Shown: positions 37,939 through 46,746 of the stretch, in pieces
How the letters are laid out: every line of letters begins with the position of its first letter
Numbering within the stretch: the stretch's first letter is position 1
Source of the DNA: Alistipes sp.
Lineage (GTDB): Bacteria > Bacteroidota > Bacteroidia > Bacteroidales > Rikenellaceae
Assembly: GCA_021201825.1 (NCBI GenBank)
Contig: JAJQED010000004.1
Coordinates: 62,001 to 126,000 of the forward strand
Length of the DNA stretch: 64,000 nt
Reading direction: 5' to 3'
Program-made: the position numbers and the translations under genes
The notes under the pieces: generated by a model
The model's input: only the letters and a program-made list of their open reading frames with translations
Database searches by the model: none
What the model was told of the DNA's origin: nothing

Positions 37939-38013
<75 letters not shown>

Positions 38014-38054
38014 TGTGGGTATCTGTGGGTGCTTTTAAAGTTGATTTGGTATGG

Positions 38055-38078
38055 GGTGGTTTAAACGGTGGTTTAAAC
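38055..38078. repeat. Tandem 12-bp direct repeats (ggtggtttaaac x2)
   Basis: 38055-38066 and 38067-38078; related tggtttaaacaa at the other element end (about 46583-46594). Confidence 0.8.
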
Positions 38079-38221
38079 AAGTTGAATGATTAATATTAGG
38101 TTATCTATTTGATAATTATGTGAATGGGTTAAAATCGCCACTCAAAAAATCGCGCCATAAATTCTCGGCCCCCTTTACTTTTAAGATAATATACTGTCTT
38201 AATTAATAAAAGAAAAAAGAA

Positions 38222-38247
38222 ACCCCGCCCATTTCGGAGCGAGGTTA
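38222..38247 (-). terminator. Hairpin downstream of lipoprotein gene
   Basis: aaccccgc ccatttcgga gcgaggtt; T-rich on minus strand. Confidence 0.6.
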
Positions 38248-38261
38248 GTAAGTGATTGAAT

Positions 38262-38723
38262 TTATTCATCTTGTGGTCTATAAGCCGTGGTATTATTAAC
38301 ACTCCAGTATCTACCGTAATATTTATCTATTTTATCTTCGTATATAAACATGTGCCCGATCTTTGTTGACACTTGCCGATAGATGCCAATTTCAAATTCT
38401 ACATATTCACTTTCTGCTACTATTCCGTAATCCTTAAACGTATAACTGTGTTTGTAAATCAAATCCGTAATGGGTATTTGAAATGTATTGCCTAACCATG
38501 AAAGGATTAAAAAATCATCATCGTTTGTCAGAGTTATCGTAGTCTCAACACCCTCAATAATCTCTTTATTTACTGCTTCCCATATAGTTGCATCATACAC
38601 GCCTAAAATGGCATATAAATTTTCCATTACGAGGTCTTTTTCTTCCTCCTGATTATCGCTATCATCTTTATTACACGATACGGCTAATATTGCTAATAGC
38701 AATACAATTAAATACTTTTTCAT
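38262..38723 (-). CDS. Small lipoprotein (153 aa)
   Basis: MKKYLIVLLLAILAVSCNKDD lipobox. Confidence 0.65.
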   Translation of the reverse strand: MKKYLIVLLLAILAVSCNKDDSDNQEEEKDLVMENLYAILGVYDATIWEAVNKEIIEGVETTITLTNDDDFLILSWLGNTFQIPITDLIYKHSYTFKDYGIVAESEYVEFEIGIYRQVSTKIGHMFIYEDKIDKYYGRYWSVNNTTAYRPQDE

Positions 38724-38739
38724 TTAGTTATTGATTTTG

Positions 38740-38975
38740 TTTGCCGTTCAGTCCCTATACGGCAGTTACCAAAAAGAAAGCGTGGGACTGAAAGCTACTT
38801 TAGTTGATAAGGCTCTGACAAAGCCCTTGGTAATAAAATAGCAACAGCCCACGCCAAAGATATGACGTGAGAGAGGTCGCTTCTTCTCTTACCGTTTTAG
38901 GAATTGTCAGATTCTATCAACGAGAATTAGCTTCACACTTTCGTGTTCTTCCAAAATGTCTGTGCCTTTCGACAC
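38740..38975 (-). ncRNA. Candidate structured RNA or long structured 5' leader upstream of lipoprotein gene
   Basis: Minus strand: TATATTTG promoter element at 38988-38981; GNRA-capped hairpins; helix GTTGATA..TCTGACAA / TTGTCAGA..TATCAAC; gcgtggg/cccacgc; ttcagtccc/gggactgaa; terminal tgccgt/acggca. Confidence 0.55.
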
Positions 38976-39170
38976 ATGGCAAATATAGGAATAATATACG
39001 AGTGTTCCTCTCCTTTAGGCTGTTGCTAAAGCAAAAGTAGTGCTATCTTTCCAAAATTAATCTATTTCATATTTAGTATGTTAATAGCAATTTTGGGGTA
39101 TTGTCTTAATTGAATTTAGAGTGACACAATTTCTCAATATCTCATTCTATATACACCTCGTGAAATTATG

Positions 39171-39454
39171 TCACTCAAAAGAACGGACGATAAGCGACAT
39201 TACCTCGTCCAGATATATAGCCTGTCCTGTGGACTGCCGTCCCCACCAAAAGCAACCGCAATTCTCGATGATAACTTCGCATTTATCTTTAAGTAGTCGG
39301 GCAAGATAGGGTGTGACGAGCCACCACTCCATAACTTCAAACCACTGGCCATACAGCGATTCGTCAGGGATGAACCCGATTTTAAGAGTTCAGAAACGAC
39401 TGAACTTTGATTGTGCAAAACATAGTTCTCAACCAATTCACTTTCCTTTTTCAT
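39171..39454 (-). pseudogene. Small hypothetical protein gene with apparent 1-nt frameshift
   Basis: MKKESELVENYVLHNQSSVVSELLK then frame shift near 39380-39386 to KIGFIPDESLYGQWFEVMEWWLVTPYLARLLKDKCEVIIENCGCFWWGRQSTGQAIYLDEVMSLIVRSFE*. Confidence 0.5.
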
Positions 39455-39485
39455 AAGACATCTTTGTTGTGGTTAATAAAAGCGA

Positions 39486-39516
39486 AAAGCCTCTCCGATT
39501 TGGAAAGGCTTTAGTT
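39486..39516. terminator. Bidirectional-type hairpin
   Basis: aaaagcctctcc-gattt-ggaaaggcttta. Confidence 0.6.
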
Positions 39517-39769
39517 TTTAAGAAATGAGACTTTGATTTATAATCCTCAGATATTTTTATCTGTCTTTAGTTTGTATTTTCTGAACAAATTATACGTCAT
39601 AGTATAAACTGTGATAGGCGAAATAAAAAATCCCCCCAGTAAATGGCGAGGGGGTAGGAAATACTTATATACCTTAATTTGTATGAGTATAATGATCCAG
39701 ATAACTCTTGTGTCAAACCCGAAAATTAGAGTTAGGCTAATACCCGTTTGTGCGTAGTTAAGTATTAGG

Positions 39770-40627
39770 TTAAATAACGGTAGGGGAAGCTAAAGCAGAT
39801 AAAGATTCTTGGAAATTGAGATTTTCTGAAAATACTAAAACTTCATCTCCTACACGATTGGAAGCGCACTGGGAAAGTTTATAAAGTAATTTATTTTCAT
39901 CTGAATATAAATCGAGGATAAACTCATGATTGTCATAAGATATCATCCACTTTTTGCTTAGTTTTTTAACGTATTTTGATAATTCTTGATGATCTTTGTC
40001 TCGGTAGAAATTCATATATAGATCAGCACCTTTCCTATAATAAGGAGGGTCGAGATAAATGAATATGTCCTTTCGTTTCCGATCAATTTTATTTACGAAA
40101 TTAACTCCATCCTCATTGGAGATGATAATTCTATCTCGAAAAGCATGGATTTTTCGAATTTTCCGTATTAACTCCTCTTTGTTAAATCGAGCATCTATTT
40201 TATATTTTCCTAATTGTTTCTGCCCTCCAATAACCCCTCCTTTTATAACGCCTGAAATGTTCGTTCTATTCAAAAAGAATGTGGATTTGGCCAATTCAAA
40301 AGTTCCAACAGCATTTATATCCATTTGGATTGCTTTGTACTTTTGCCAATTTTCAATAGATATTTCTACATTAGTAATCCAATCACACAATCTGTCCACG
40401 TCATTTAATACAGTATTCCAGAAAGCATATATTGATGGATCGAAGTCATTTATATAGATTTGATTGACATATTCCTCAAAAAGTAATCTTAGTGCAAGAC
40501 CTGCTCCTCCCGCATAAGGTTCGGCATAGTTTATCCCCACTAAATTGTTCTCATAAAAGAATCTGGAAACAAAAGGGAAAATGCAATTTTTCCCTCCAGG
40601 ATATCTTAATGGAGAATAATGTTTCAT
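39770..40627 (-). CDS. Dam-like (D12 class) N6-adenine DNA methyltransferase
   Basis: 'SPLRYPGGKNCIFPFV', 'NYAEPYAGGAGLALRLL', 'DIFIYLDPPYYRKGADLY'. Confidence 0.92.
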   Translation of the reverse strand: MKHYSPLRYPGGKNCIFPFVSRFFYENNLVGINYAEPYAGGAGLALRLLFEEYVNQIYINDFDPSIYAFWNTVLNDVDRLCDWITNVEISIENWQKYKAIQMDINAVGTFELAKSTFFLNRTNISGVIKGGVIGGQKQLGKYKIDARFNKEELIRKIRKIHAFRDRIIISNEDGVNFVNKIDRKRKDIFIYLDPPYYRKGADLYMNFYRDKDHQELSKYVKKLSKKWMISYDNHEFILDLYSDENKLLYKLSQCASNRVGDEVLVFSENLNFQESLSALASPTVI

Positions 40628-40628
40628 A

Positions 40629-41906
40629 TCAATTTTTACCGTGTGTAATTTGGACCATTGCTCCTAATATTATTGATATTGCAATTGTCTGGTCATAATT
40701 TTTTGATGCTGTATAATTATGTGCTCCAATGTGCAAGTGTTGCAATAAAGACGATTCTGCAACATTATGAGAACTCAAATAAGTTTTAGCATCCTGATTT
40801 TCTTTTAACGTAGCTTTAGCTTTCTTAAAATTGGCCTTTATATATTTATCCATATCTCCTCCTGTCCTCTCTTGTGCCGCGGTTTCACAGAATAACCTCA
40901 TAGACATCCTGATCAAACAAGGGAATGAATTGGATAGAGTTTTTTTGTTCGCTTCGTAATACGAATTTAAATCGAGAATATCTCTATATAAATTACTAAC
41001 TTCTCCTGCCACTAAATATAACGGGCCACCAAATATAGTAAGTTTGTTCCCGCTTACTCGTTTAGTTTTCCTTTTTTTTACCTCTGGCTGAAATGTCTTT
41101 TCTGGAACCGATTTTAAATCAATAGGAACGAATTTATTTTTATAATTATCCTCGATGATACTTATTGTTGTTGGTTCTAAAGCTTTTTTTACTGTTCCGC
41201 GATTTTTTCGTGTGGTTATTTCTTTGTATTGAATTTTATGCGCTAAATCTGTCAATATTTCTGTTGCTTGTTCAGGAGTATATTTAGAATATAGTTGACC
41301 ATCCTTAAATTCAAAGCCTAAATCGTGCAATATGTGTTCTGTAAGCACCTCCTCTTTAACAAACCTTTGATTTAAAAAAGAATTATTACTTATCATGCCT
41401 CCTGTATTTTCATCAAAGAGTAGAAAAGTACTTTTGCCTTGGGACATAAATTTATCCACAAACATATCTCTTTCTAATGCAGACCATGAGCCAGAATCTG
41501 CATGTTTACGATAAACATTTTTTAGTGCTATATCTTCAGAGCAAACGTTACATGGAATCTCTTTGGGAATATTGGGCAAAGTATCAATATCGCTATCTTC
41601 TGCAATATCTACATATCCATGTTGAATTTTACCCAAAATTATACGCCTGTTACCATCGTAGACCACAGGTTTTTTTCCGTGGTACACAACTGTTGGGAGT
41701 TCGCTAAAATCATAATAATCTCCCATCTCTTTAGCTAACTTCTTTAAAGTCCACTTGTCATTATGATCTCTTATTGCTTTATCAACAATTTGCTGGTCTG
41801 TGGCATTTGGATTTATCGGGTCTCGCGGATTTTCTGTCCACAAAACCAAATCTTTCAATCGAATCGTCCTTACTTCTTGGCTCATAAATTGGGTTTGTTT
41901 ATGCAA
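40629..41906 (-). CDS. ParB/Srx N-terminal-domain-like protein, operonic with Dam-like MTase
   Basis: 'IRLKDLVLWTENPRDPINPNATDQQIVDKAI...ELPTVVYHGKKPVVYDGNRRIILGKI' ParB-like fold signature; 1-nt spacing to MTase start; start may be internal Met (MSQEVRTIRL). Confidence 0.75.
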   Translation of the reverse strand: MHKQTQFMSQEVRTIRLKDLVLWTENPRDPINPNATDQQIVDKAIRDHNDKWTLKKLAKEMGDYYDFSELPTVVYHGKKPVVYDGNRRIILGKIQHGYVDIAEDSDIDTLPNIPKEIPCNVCSEDIALKNVYRKHADSGSWSALERDMFVDKFMSQGKSTFLLFDENTGGMISNNSFLNQRFVKEEVLTEHILHDLGFEFKDGQLYSKYTPEQATEILTDLAHKIQYKEITTRKNRGTVKKALEPTTISIIEDNYKNKFVPIDLKSVPEKTFQPEVKKRKTKRVSGNKLTIFGGPLYLVAGEVSNLYRDILDLNSYYEANKKTLSNSFPCLIRMSMRLFCETAAQERTGGDMDKYIKANFKKAKATLKENQDAKTYLSSHNVAESSLLQHLHIGAHNYTASKNYDQTIAISIILGAMVQITHGKN

Positions 41907-42007
41907 ACATAATGATTATAAGTTTAATAACCAGAGGTAGTATATTTTTTATTGGCAGGGAAAGTGATGTAATTTTGAGAGGTTTTATAAAGAGAGATAT
42001 TTACAAT

Positions 42008-44371
42008 TTATATCACTTTTGGAAATTTCTTACCCAATAGCACCCACTTCCCTGCTCCTGCTGTTCCTCGCTTAAAATGCCCATAAAAATACAAGAGAAT
42101 ATCTCCTGCCGTTCCCCTACGATCATAACTTATCTTATACTTATTAAGAATTGGCTCCAAATACTTTTGAACGTCTGCTGTGGTATATGTAGTATTCGGA
42201 TTGAAAGCCTTATAGACATCCTTAATAACAGGCTTATTTCTTAGTTGGCTTAATCGTTTGGCTTTCTTCAATTCGGTCTTTACCGCTGAATCTTTAAACT
42301 CTAAATCTTTTATCTTAGCCAGTTTCAGATAAGGCATAGCCTCGATATATAATGAATATTCTTTTTTAAGTTCGGCTAAAAATTTGAGATCATATAAGTT
42401 ACTAAATTCCTCTATCTTTAAGAGAATGTCATATAAGAGGGTAATTCGCTTGGCTTTAGAATTATTCTTATTTAATAGGTAATTTCTTTCCTGTTCTGTA
42501 TAAACAGCATATTCTGAATCGGAATATACCATAAAAGCCTCAGAACGAATGTAAGATTTATAAAGAGTAGATGGGTATCTATAAATCATTTTCAACCGTT
42601 CATCCAGATAAGCATTGTTATATCGGAAATAGTTTATATCCCCATTTTTTTGATTTACATAACCCTCTTTCCAATATTCGGTATTCTCGATACCCTCTTT
42701 TATTATATCGCTCTCTCCTTGACTATCTGCCGCCTCATAGAGTTCAACCATTTTATGAAGTCCTGAATGTTGTTCTTTTAGATATTGCTCAAACTCTTCT
42801 CTTTCGTAATACTCCAGTTGTGGATTGGTGTCGGTTATATGTATTATTTTATCTATGCCGTTTCGGAATCTCCCTGCAATCTGTATGGCTTCTGTTTCTG
42901 GGTCTATAAGGGAATATGGTGTTTTGTCAGGTATGGTTTTATACACCCTCGAAATCATCATTACGGTAGGCTTATAATCTAATTCAATATCAACCGCAGA
43001 ATAAAATCTGCTCGTAAAGAAATTATATTTATTTAAGACGGCTTTACCGTTTTCAATCGCAATAGTGTCGAAAACATTATACCCGTCTTTCTTTATATTC
43101 TTTTTCGCGTCGCTACTGCAATATATATGTGTTTTTTCTCCAATTTTAAGCGCATCAATCATTTCTATAATACCTGACGGAGAGTTATAGAACACACAAA
43201 CAACCTCATCCTCATCTAATTGTTTAAGAGTTCTTTTAAACATTAGACTTACATTATTGGTGTGTTTTAGTTCCAATAACTGTATATGATCGTATAGAGG
43301 CTGTATCTTTATTACTTTAAAGCCCTGCTCCTCAAATCGAGAATCATTCACGACTATTGGAGTAGCCGAAACCATTGCCTTATTCTTAAACAGAAAGAAA
43401 TCATCAATCGGCAGAATGATATTCTGACGAAAGTCAATATCCGATACTATCTTATCGCACTCATCGAATAATAGAAACCAATCAGTCAAGTAATGGAATC
43501 TAAGCGCGTCTAAGGCCTTTCTTACTTTTGTCTAGCTGTCTGGGGTGGTCATTATCTTTATGGTTCCCGTTTGCTCCGAAATTCGCTCGGCTATATCTTT
43601 AGCTGTTATCTTTTCTCCGTAAACGCCAATTAGATTTGGATGTTTTAGTTGCTTGCCAATTATAACAGGCACATTAGTCTCAATTATAATCGAATTGCGG
43701 TTTTTGTTGGTTATCTCTAAATAAGTGGCCCCACAACCGCATATTGTCTTATTGATTATTGTGTTAGTTGGAATTTCAGGTAATACAGAATCAAGATGTT
43801 TCCCCTCTTTTAGATATATAATTTCTGTCGGGAGTGTGTGGGTATCTAAAACTGGAATATCCTGCTCTGGGCATGGCGAGGAATATGCCTCTATGCTTTC
43901 AAGTAAGTTATTCAATTCATCCCATGAATAGGGAAAGAAACCGTAGTCTATGCTCCCATACGGATAGTTTGCAGTGAAACGGATGCCCTTTATATCGTTA
44001 TGTATTTCTTCCTCATGTGTATACTTATCTCCGCCTCGCTTAATCTCTCTCTTTATATGCTTATATATATGATCTTCCTCTGCCCAATGGGGAATATCTT
44101 TATCTCCAATGTCAAACTTAGGCATGTCCTGAGTATTGCCCGTAAGCAAATAAGAGAATATAAACTTCTCAATGGCGGGTGTGAATAGTATTTCGTGATA
44201 ACCGAAAAAATCGTCTCCTATAGTGCCTGTTCGCAAAATAGGAACTCCTTTCAGCATTCCAATTCTACCCTCTAACCTTATGCCGTCCCTTAGAAAGCTT
44301 TGAAATTTTCTGTTTCTGCCTGAATATTTAAGGTCTTAACGGTTCGCCTTTTTGGGTTGATTGTTTGCCAT
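42008..44371 (-). pseudogene. Divergent SF2 helicase-like gene interrupted by two in-frame stop codons
   Basis: Single 788-codon frame starting MANNQPKKANR, TAA at 44336-44338, TAG at 43532-43534; motifs 'NKTICGCGATYLEI', 'LLFDECDKIV', 'VSATPIV', 'AIQIAGRFRNG'. Confidence 0.75.
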
Positions 44372-44911
44372 TTAAAGCAAGGAATTTAATTTGGCATCCA
44401 GTTCTTCGGTAGTATAGGGGAGTTTGCCGTAATTGATTGTAATACGATTATAGGTTGCCTTATATCCCGTTTCGGGGTCGTGGGTTAGTTTACTGTTTTG
44501 GCTGTCACGTTTCAGAAGATGAAAAAGATACGTTTCCTTTGCATTGGTTGCACCCACAAAATTACTCGGTATATGGGTATCTAAAATATAGTTTTCAAAA
44601 TGGTTGTATATGTAATTTAGAATGTCTTTGTTAAGATGCAGGTTCTTGGTTTCCGATGCAGAAACGGAAAAGAATTTATAGTAAGGACAATTTTTATTTA
44701 TTATAAATTCAGGGTCAATGGAAGTCCCCCATTCCATTTCCTCTTTTAACGTGTTAAATGCTCCCAGATTTTCAGTGCTTTTAAAATCCGAGAGAGATAT
44801 TTTTGTCATATTACCCTGTGAAGCCATATAATCATCATGAAGTGCATCTGCATCGAATGGGGTATTTTCTTCTACCATTAGCGTATCCTGTTCGTGGTTA
44901 TCATAGTTCAT
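44372..44911 (-). CDS. Hypothetical protein (179 aa) translationally adjacent to helicase frame
   Basis: Stop TAA immediately precedes ATG of the helicase frame. Confidence 0.6.
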   Translation of the reverse strand: MNYDNHEQDTLMVEENTPFDADALHDDYMASQGNMTKISLSDFKSTENLGAFNTLKEEMEWGTSIDPEFIINKNCPYYKFFSVSASETKNLHLNKDILNYIYNHFENYILDTHIPSNFVGATNAKETYLFHLLKRDSQNSKLTHDPETGYKATYNRITINYGKLPYTTEELDAKLNSLL

Positions 44912-44952
44912 ATTTAGTTGGATTTTAGATTATTAATTCGATAAATATATGA

Positions 44953-44992
44953 AAAAAGAGGCTGTCCGCATAATTGGACAACCTCTTTTAGT
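44953..44992. terminator. Strong hairpin
   Basis: aaaagaggctgtcc-gcataatt-ggacaacctctttt. Confidence 0.8.
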
Positions 44993-45054
44993 TTAGTGAC
45001 ATATTTTTGAACGGGTACATAAAAGAAGATTTGGCTGAATTGTGTCACTTGTCA

Positions 45055-45372
45055 TTACTTTCTGAACATACGCCAGTCCTCGAATGAAGATGGCATAAAG
45101 CGGCCATACCCTCCTTTTGCCCATTTAATATATTCTTCATACTCAGCCTTGTCTCTTTCCAATTGTTGTGCTTCTGCTTGCCTCCTTTGTATTTCCTTTA
45201 CTGCGGACTTTGTGATTTCTCTTGCTCTTATTTCATCTTTTCTTACCCTTTTACGCTCATTATAATTACCTATGATAAGGAGTGCAATAGCTGCTATTAT
45301 AAGGATTAAAAGGAAAATCATATCATCATTATTAAGATTTATCAAATTTAATGTATTATCTTGATATGACAA
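45055..45372 (-). CDS. Small membrane/coiled-coil hypothetical protein (105 aa)
   Basis: TM near N-terminus followed by charged helix; next to integrase. Confidence 0.5.
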   Translation of the reverse strand: MSYQDNTLNLINLNNDDMIFLLILIIAAIALLIIGNYNERKRVRKDEIRAREITKSAVKEIQRRQAEAQQLERDKAEYEEYIKWAKGGYGRFMPSSFEDWRMFRK

Positions 45373-45375
45373 AGT

Positions 45376-46583
45376 TTACAGCAGATTCTTCATCGCCTCG
45401 TCAATCTGCGAGTTTTCAAAGCTGTCGAGGTAATATTGGGTGACTTTCTCGGAACTGTGGCCTAATGATTCACATATTATAGAAGTCGATACACCTGACC
45501 TTTTCAAAACGGTCGCGTAAGAGTGGCGAGCAACATAGGTAGTTAAGTCAATCGGTATTCCCAACTCTTTCCCGACTTCTTTTAGATATTTATTCACTTT
45601 AGTAATGACTTTGTGAATGCGGTTTCGCTGCTGTATCTCCGTCTTGTGAAATGAAGAAAGTATAGGAAAGATATAATCCTCATCATCGTAAAAGGGGCTT
45701 ATGTACCTTTCAATGATTTCTACTGCTCTAGGTTGCAACGGTAGGCGAATCAATTTACCAGTCTTTTGGCGAGGATAGACAAGTCGGTTATCCACGAGGT
45801 TTGCACCTCTCAAATGCGCCATATCCACGAAATTAATCCCTGCCATATAATAGGAGAAAGCAAACAGATCAATAGCAAGGCGAGTGTATTTATGTTCCGT
45901 TTCGTAGTTTACAATCTTTATAATATCATCTTTCGATACTGACCGCTTTGCTGTTGCTTGGCTCAATTTAGATACCTTGTAGGCCTTGAAAGGGTAGTAT
46001 TCTGCTTTGACAATGTTTTGCTCGATAGCCAAATTGAAAACTGCTCGAAGTGTGCGAAATCTTTTGCCTGTGGTATTCTCGGCAGAGCCACCCGACCGCA
46101 ACCAATTTTCATAGCGTTTTAGCCATGCTGTGTCAATATCGGAGAAATAAATATCCAGATGCCCGTTGAATTTTTTGAGTGAATTGTAGACCTCTAAATG
46201 CGACATTGCATATCCTGTCCGCTTTTGCTCTTTTAGGGATTTGATTTGAGCGAGAAATAAATCGCCGACGGTCTTTTTACGGACAGGGTTAATTAGTCGC
46301 TCATGCAGAGAAGTGGCGGTGAAATCCTTATTTTCGGCTTGCAATTCGATAATCTTTGACCGATACGCTTTGATTTTGTCGGCCATAATCCGTTCGATAT
46401 TTACCCGATTCGGGCAGTTTCTACGGGTTTGTTCTTCTCGAAATCCCAGAATGCGGGATTAACGGAAACTCCGATACTTGAATACTTTAGCTTACGGTCT
46501 TTTGTGATTCGGAGCATTAATGGGGATTCATTGTTTGCCAATACTTTAGACTTGTAACAAACGACTTCGATAGTTACGCTCAT
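45376..46583 (-). pseudogene. int: Tyrosine recombinase/integrase split by 1-nt frameshift
   Basis: N-terminal arm domain 46401..46583 (MSVTIEVVCYKSKVLANNESPLMLRITKDRKLKYSSIGVSVNPAFWDFEKNKP) and catalytic part 45376..46386; frames join if CCC at 46427-46425 (minus) were CCCC. Confidence 0.85.
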
Positions 46584-46671
46584 GGTTTAAACAACTTGCA
46601 TCGTCCACCATTAAAACCCACCCCACGCACACAAAAAAAGACAGATACATTTCTATAACTGTCTCATTTTT

Positions 46672-46746
<75 letters not shown>

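Follow-up and report, generated by a model that had tools for sequence, protein, structure and literature searches.

The stretch of DNA upstream of a small lipoprotein gene in Alistipes sp. holds one copy of a family of structured RNA elements, and we read this RNA, at a probability of about 0.55, as a cis-acting 5' leader that would switch between two folds, one closed and allowing read-through, the other resembling a terminator. What is shown in support of this reading is the conservation of the sequence, its base pairs, the alternative pairings that covary, where the promoter lies and the gene context. Transcription, action in cis, termination at the stem formed by strands X and Y, and the signal are inferred. 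The window, that is, the whole stretch of DNA that was analysed, comprises 64,000 nucleotides (contig JAJQED010000004.1, positions 62,001 to 126,000), and its copy of the RNA consists of the following parts, listed in window positions.

38980..38987, minus strand: promoter -7 box TATATTTG, of the Bacteroides type TAnnTTTG, read from the sequence
38961..38976, minus strand: variable 5' hairpin TGTGTC-GAAA-GGCACA, read from the sequence
38773..38949, minus strand: conserved core of the RNA family, matched by covariance model R1 with 135.3 bits
38946-38935, minus strand: small hairpin P0, ACAC-GAAA-GTGT; the GAAA of the P1 5' strand is the P0 loop
38935..38942, minus strand: P1 5' strand GAAAGUGU; P1 is 98% paired in 102 sequences
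38922..38926, minus strand: P2 5' strand UUCUC; 5/5 P2 pairs are changed on both sides
38915..38921, minus strand: 5' strand GUUGAUA of long-range helix h1, supported by the cross-locus pairing comparison
38904..38911, minus strand: 5' strand UCUGACAA of the long-range (kissing) helix h2, in the loop of mini-hairpin K1
38889..38893, minus strand: 5' strand GGUAA of long-range helix h3
38884..38888, minus strand: P2 3' strand GAGAA
38864..38871, minus strand: P3 5' strand CUCACGUC, first partner of strand X; 97.5% of cells paired
38845..38855, minus strand: switching strand X GGCGUGGGCUG, whose partner is the P3 5' strand or strand Y
38835..38842, minus strand: P4 5' strand GCUAUUUU; 8/8 pairs compensated
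38829..38833, minus strand: 3' strand UUACC of long-range helix h3
38814..38821, minus strand: 3' strand UUGUCAGA of long-range helix h2, in the loop of mini-hairpin K2
38803..38809, minus strand: 3' strand UAUCAAC of long-range helix h1
38794..38801, minus strand: P4 3' strand AAAGUAGC
38780..38790, minus strand: switching strand Y CAGUCCCACGC, whose partner is X (stem b), the P1 5' strand or the P5 loop (pairing c)
38776..38783, minus strand: P1 3' strand ACGCUUUC, overlapping the terminator-like stem (b) and the U-tract
38771..38779, minus strand: U-tract UUUCUUUUU, immediately 3' of stem b
38742..38764, minus strand: P5 hairpin UGCCGU-loop-ACGGCA; its loop GGGACUG is complementary to strand Y (pairing c)
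38262..38723, minus strand: downstream gene for a 153-aa lipoprotein (lipobox AVSC), with its start codon at 38723, 49 nt past the core

The lipoprotein matches no Pfam family. Relatives with a longer spacing between box and core carry a variable hairpin at the place of the 5' hairpin.

An earlier note, made from the letters of the window only, had proposed a switching, highly structured RNA here. All of the minus-strand elements that it named are present, about 1 base from where it had placed them. These are the TATATTTG element (38987-38980), the GAAA-capped hairpins (TGTGTC-GAAA-GGCACA at 38976-38961 and ACAC-GAAA-GTGT at 38946-38935), a split helix made of GTTGATA (38921-38915) with TATCAAC (38809-38803) and of TCTGACAA (38911-38904) with TTGTCAGA (38821-38814), the pairing of GCGTGGG (38854-38848) with CCCACGC (38786-38780), an alternative long-range pairing of TTCAGTCCC (38792-38784) with GGGACTGAA (38755-38747), and a terminal stem of TGCCGT (38764-38759) with ACGGCA (38747-38742). 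Its claim of mutually exclusive pairings held as well, and these are also conserved in relatives. It had overlooked the third long-range helix, h3, in which GGUAA (38893-38889) pairs with UUACC (38833-38829).

The window copy lies within an 8.8-kb integrative element (37939-46746) situated between two tRNA-Phe(GAA) copies that share a 75-bp identical repeat (37939-38013 and 46672-46746). Encoded on this element are an integrase (45376-46386) and a D12 adenine methyltransferase; the leader and the lipoprotein gene sit at the end of the element. Two further ORFs of the element, of 493 and 241 aa (42008-44257, minus strand), look like pieces of one helicase-like gene; neither matches Pfam. An 84-aa ORF at 39200-39454 (minus strand) is an apparent frameshifted remnant of a 94-aa ORF (MITEQELVQNNVLHNQS...). 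In four other loci (L007, L011, L022 and L039) the 94-aa ORF is intact and immediately precedes the leader, so that the 94-aa ORF, the leader and a gene for an exported protein form a recurring trio. Between the ORF remnant and the leader promoter is an inverted repeat, GAGTGACATAATTTC / GAAATTGTGTCACTC (39180-39115, minus strand), which could be the terminator of the upstream gene. Reading frames that recur inside the RNA itself (MAWAVAYF...) were rejected as genes and are by-products of the shared RNA sequence.

The RNA is not confined to the integrative element of the window, and the family is spread through the order. By blastn, 75 of 268 genomes from the taxonomic family of the window (Rikenellaceae) carry copies, the best of them 65-82% identical over the matched part. 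The covariance model R1, built from 30 of these copies (alignment A1), matched 236 of the 268 Rikenellaceae genomes. In wider samples it matched 130 of 393 genomes at the level of the order, 39 of 295 for the class and 14 of 198 sampled from the phylum; these wider samples overlap and their matches are weaker. The matches extend over hundreds of genomes, with E-values as low as 1e-45. The named collection contained the RNA in Alistipes, Tidjanibacter, Dysgonomonas, Tannerellaceae, Prevotella and Phocaeicola. Deeper scoring of 12 chosen genomes gave 2 copies in the genome of the window and up to 25 elsewhere. Members of the family measure about 180-250 nt, and copies can lie in tandem (L093, 1280-1461 and 1501-1662) or convergently, tail to tail (L109 and L112). 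The window itself found no match in the plasmid and phage collections searched. When relatives were searched in these collections, one Parabacteroides plasmid and one unannotated phage scaffold were recovered. Viral contigs contained 74 exact matches to a 15-base pattern, many of them probably due to chance.

The region folds strongly, and does so on the minus strand. The 278-nt stretch upstream of the lipoprotein start (about 38987-38724, minus strand) has a predicted folding energy of -88.4 kcal/mol, compared with -60.8 ± 4.7 kcal/mol for 200 dinucleotide shuffles (z -5.91), while the plus strand of the same region folds less well (z -3.97). That the plus strand folds strongly at all is expected because the RNA gene is near-palindromic. 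An RNA on the plus strand was rejected given this weaker fold and much weaker model scores, which reach no more than 36 bits on the opposite strand and mostly lie between 60 and 183 bits on the RNA strand.

To assess the fold across relatives we used an alignment of 103 copies (A3). The compensatory changes that, according to the earlier note, would support its helices are present, with 670 double-changed cells compared with 222 ± 16 in shuffles. Over the whole structure 92.9% of cells are paired, and both sides have changed in 44 of 54 base pairs; in P1, for example, the outer pair changes from G-C to A-U in 12 sequences. None of 500 shuffles reached the observed compensation values and the covariation score was double that of the shuffles. 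Sliding the partners by 1-3 columns reduced pairing to 34-55%.

The model R1 included P1, P2, P3, P4 and the small K2 stem. It did not include K1, h1, h2, h3 or the X-Y stem, with the exception of the P4 outer pairs, which are part of X-Y; the counts for these helices are thus independent of the fitting. In an APC-corrected covariation ranking that assumes no structure, the top three pairs all belong to h2, with pairs of K1, h1 and h3 close behind and single pairs of P3, P4, P1 and X-Y lower, although the ranking also contains indirect couplings within h2. In h2, 6/6 pairs are compensated. Although almost every locus has a 5' strand of h1 of its own (87 distinct sequences), the strands remain complementary to the partners in their own loci: 92% form at least 5.5 of 6 pairs with their own partner, compared with 3% with the partner from another locus. 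Mean pairing with the own partner versus other loci was 5.81 of 6 versus 3.66 ± 0.08 for h1, 4.98 of 6 versus 3.27 ± 0.08 for h3 and 5.98 of 6 versus 4.95 for h2, while wrong combinations of h1, h2 and h3 strands stayed at the null level. Very probably, then, the RNA consists of P2 and P4 hairpins with loops of ~30 nt that are linked by the three long-range helices, a fold we infer from sequence alone. By the same inference the mini-hairpins K1 and K2 kiss via h2, and h1 and h3 flank them on the two sides, each linking the P2 loop to the P4 loop. P2, h1, P4 and h3 would then form one four-way junction and h1, K1, h3 and K2 a second; that all of these form simultaneously is not established.

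Strands X and Y each have more than one conserved partner. Pairing reaches 97-98% in P3 and P1 and 97% in X-Y taken together with P4, where 15 of 17 pairs show compensations. In some relatives, among them L025, L073, L083, L091 and L095, X and Y have changed in concert. Alignment column 227, in X, covaries both with column 116 in P3 and with column 325, its Y partner in stem b, as expected if both pairings of X matter. Strand Y is itself divided, its ACGC pairing with the P1 5' strand and its CAGUCCC with the P5 loop. The latter, pairing c, also covaries (5.20 versus 4.72 ± 0.05 shuffled); a P5 hairpin with a Y-complementary loop occurs in 71 of 102 copies, compared with 10-15 when the downstream sequence is shuffled and 25-37 with the Y of other loci. 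The outer pairing of P4 (GCUG/CAG) was rejected as a helix of its own: alone it showed no excess over shuffled loci, and we therefore treat it as part of stem b. Evidence for competition between P0 and P1 is suggestive only, the alignment there being very gappy.

Taken in isolation, the X-Y segment forms the X-Y stem in the minimum free energy (MFE) structure of 103 of 103 copies, with a median of -28.7 kcal/mol. Across these copies the frequency of U is 0.66-0.92 at positions +5 to +9 after stem b (background, 0.30) and falls back to background by +13. P1 accounts for only the first four positions of the U-tract, and the U-rich stretch extends well beyond them. The family thus meets the criterion for an attenuator, mutually exclusive conserved stems of which one is followed by a U-tract, in the absence of data on shortened transcripts. 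The loop of X-Y measures ~50 nt and is occupied by P4 and K2, which sets the stem apart from a compact intrinsic terminator. A simple terminator scan limited to loops of 3-8 found no terminator; it does not cover loops as long as that of X-Y. Forcing X-Y in the window copy costs 13.5 kcal/mol relative to the nested MFE structure (pseudoknots ignored), and X-Y would therefore need help or kinetics to form.

The surroundings of the RNA are those of a leader. In 85% of 89 relatives the 65 nt upstream of the core contain a TAnnTTTG box, compared with 7% in the control. An ORF on the same strand starts 25-130 nt downstream in 68 of 89 copies, whereas a divergent ORF lies upstream in 10 of 89; the spacing from core to start codon has a median of 52 nt and is commonly 42-87 nt. 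A clear ORF is missing at the expected place in 21 of 89 copies. A cis-regulatory leader should lie between a promoter and a same-strand start codon at many unrelated loci, and this criterion is met, the effect on expression being inferred. The earlier note had left a choice between a switching leader and an independent ncRNA; because of this gene context we favour the leader, while transcription, actual switching and a sensed signal are not shown.

The downstream genes are of one broad kind. Exported-looking proteins, with a signal-peptide-like start, make up 71 of 92 (77%) versus 54 of 242 (22%) background ORFs (p 3e-20), and a lipobox is found in 36 of 92 versus 23 of 242; both calls rest on a simple heuristic and not on a trained predictor. 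The families represented are BspA-type leucine-rich repeats (LRR_5), fimbrillin-like proteins (Mfa_like_1), BACON, DUF4988 and lipocalin-like proteins, with no common pathway that would name a ligand. A short ORF (MKSNKNTPHMDYVSPRVEFYYFAVESGFLGS...) follows the leader in one locus (L107, 7090-7254), and in three others (L018, L028 and L030) a short ORF possibly precedes fimbrillin-like genes that start 190-240 nt downstream.

In the mechanism we propose, transcription would begin from the TAnnTTTG promoter that lies a few bases upstream of the RNA. The RNA would fold as a multi-branched core closed by P1, in which h1, h2 and h3 connect the loops of P2 and P4. In the closed form, P1 would keep the ACGC of Y and the first U residues, P3 would keep X, and the remainder of Y would pair with the P5 loop near the start codon. 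In the other form, X-Y would form a GC-rich stem with P4 as its cap and the U-tract behind it, and would stop transcription. Some signal, be it a metabolite, ion, protein or RNA whose identity is unknown, would select between the forms. P3 can form before Y is transcribed, and X-Y would therefore have to invade P3. A default-on leader that is turned off by a signal or by slow kinetics would fit the energetics; this polarity is a guess. Pairing c lies 3' of the U-tract and so has no antiterminator role, which hints at a translational step: P5, near the start codon and past the U-tract, may add translational control. A bolder reading, possible but in our view less likely than not, is that the family is a new ligand-sensing RNA class (a riboswitch) of unusual fold, with two linked four-way junctions and one shared signal across Bacteroidales that would set the expression of surface adhesins and lipoproteins; ligand binding is inferred.

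Several other explanations were weighed against the transcriptional switch. It is possible that the leader controls translation instead, the core and P5 (~20-30 nt before the start codon) gating ribosome access and the U-rich stretch serving as a linker. In support of this, P5 and pairing c are conserved just before the start codon and after the U-tract, the distance to the start codon is narrowly constrained (median 52 nt), and the small elements DUF805 and DUF805b lie between core and start codon in a few copies and also occur alone before start codons. Against it, U-richness extends to +9 or +11 after a GC-rich, compensated stem, which a translational switch does not need. An independent trans-acting sRNA of ~200 nt, with its own promoter and ending at X-Y and the U-tract, the adjacent gene being read through incidentally, appears unlikely. 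The promoter box, the terminator-like end, the many copies per genome and the precedent of the multicopy trans-acting FopS family in Bacteroides (PMC11697453) speak for such an sRNA, but it would not account for a same-strand start codon at near-constant spacing (68/89), the strong bias to one class of downstream gene, or the conservation of P5 and pairing c past the U-tract.

An element acting as DNA, such as a folded recombination site or the end of a mobile cassette, might be suspected from the near-palindromic sequence, the high and variable copy number and the location of the window copy inside an integrative element. We consider it very improbable, as G-U pairs are frequent, the opposite strand scores at most 36 bits versus mostly 60-183 bits on the RNA strand, the positions of promoter and start codon are fixed, and no repeat borders or recombinase were seen to be shared across loci. 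A functionless chance fold, in favour of which only the lack of expression data speaks, is all but excluded, both by the E-values reaching 1e-45 across hundreds of genomes and because relatives keep the pairings by compensation.

The RNA matches no described RNA that we could find. Rfam 15 contains no family over the core, as judged by scanning the window and about 80 related loci; weak matches such as mir-3688 and SMAD5-AS1 fell far below threshold and were rejected. Two Rfam families, DUF805 (RF03081) and DUF805b (RF02914), are cis-regulatory RNAs of similar organisms that likewise lie between an upstream element and a start codon, and they are found 3' of the core in a few loci (L077, L091/L232 and L098). 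They differ from the leader in being only 68 and 35 nt long, in sequence and fold (DUF805b has a conserved GCCGAAAA loop and a AGAGUAGGC tail before the start codon) and in also occurring without the core, and they are absent from the window and from the great majority of members scanned. With high confidence, therefore, we regard them as a neighbouring module and not as the leader RNA. One locus without the leader (L230) has three DUF805b elements in a row (120-155, 396-430 and 1501-1535), of which two or more precede a start codon by ~20 nt, and here they behave as a start-codon-proximal module.

The FopS and GibS sRNAs of Bacteroides (PMC11697453) resemble the leader in being multicopy Bacteroidales RNAs with their own Bacteroides-type promoters. 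FopS, however, consists of a single-stranded 5' stretch and one terminator hairpin and acts in trans on SusC mRNAs (PMC11697453); it has no multi-branch core or loop-loop helices, and the leader fails the criteria for FopS. Cobalamin and lysine riboswitches are 5' leaders with a branched core, a long-range loop-loop helix and an alternative stem with a U-tract. The leader would work alike in its position, its loop-loop contact and its alternative stem with U-tract, but it has no Rfam riboswitch match, no coherent metabolic regulon, no known ligand and three separate loop-loop helices. The candidates of Fremin and Bhatt 2021 (PMC8040213) and Flavo-1 (RF01705) are likewise computed motifs from gut or Bacteroidota genomes. 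The examples in the former are short (40-132 bp) and none is placed upstream of surface lipoproteins in the sections bearing on it, although overlap with the supplementary list is not excluded; Flavo-1 had no match in any locus scanned. The open-access literature searched contained no description of the RNA, and an earlier listing as a bare candidate is still possible. The family is thus missing from Rfam 15 and probably undescribed.

These data suggest a large family of regulatory RNAs, present in some of the most common gut bacteria and carried by most members of its taxonomic family. The three loop-loop helices make its predicted fold unusual, and the fold gives sharp, testable predictions. 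The leader precedes genes for surface lipoproteins, fimbrillin-like proteins and BspA-type repeat proteins, and it may therefore serve as a common switch governing how these bacteria appear to their host and neighbours.
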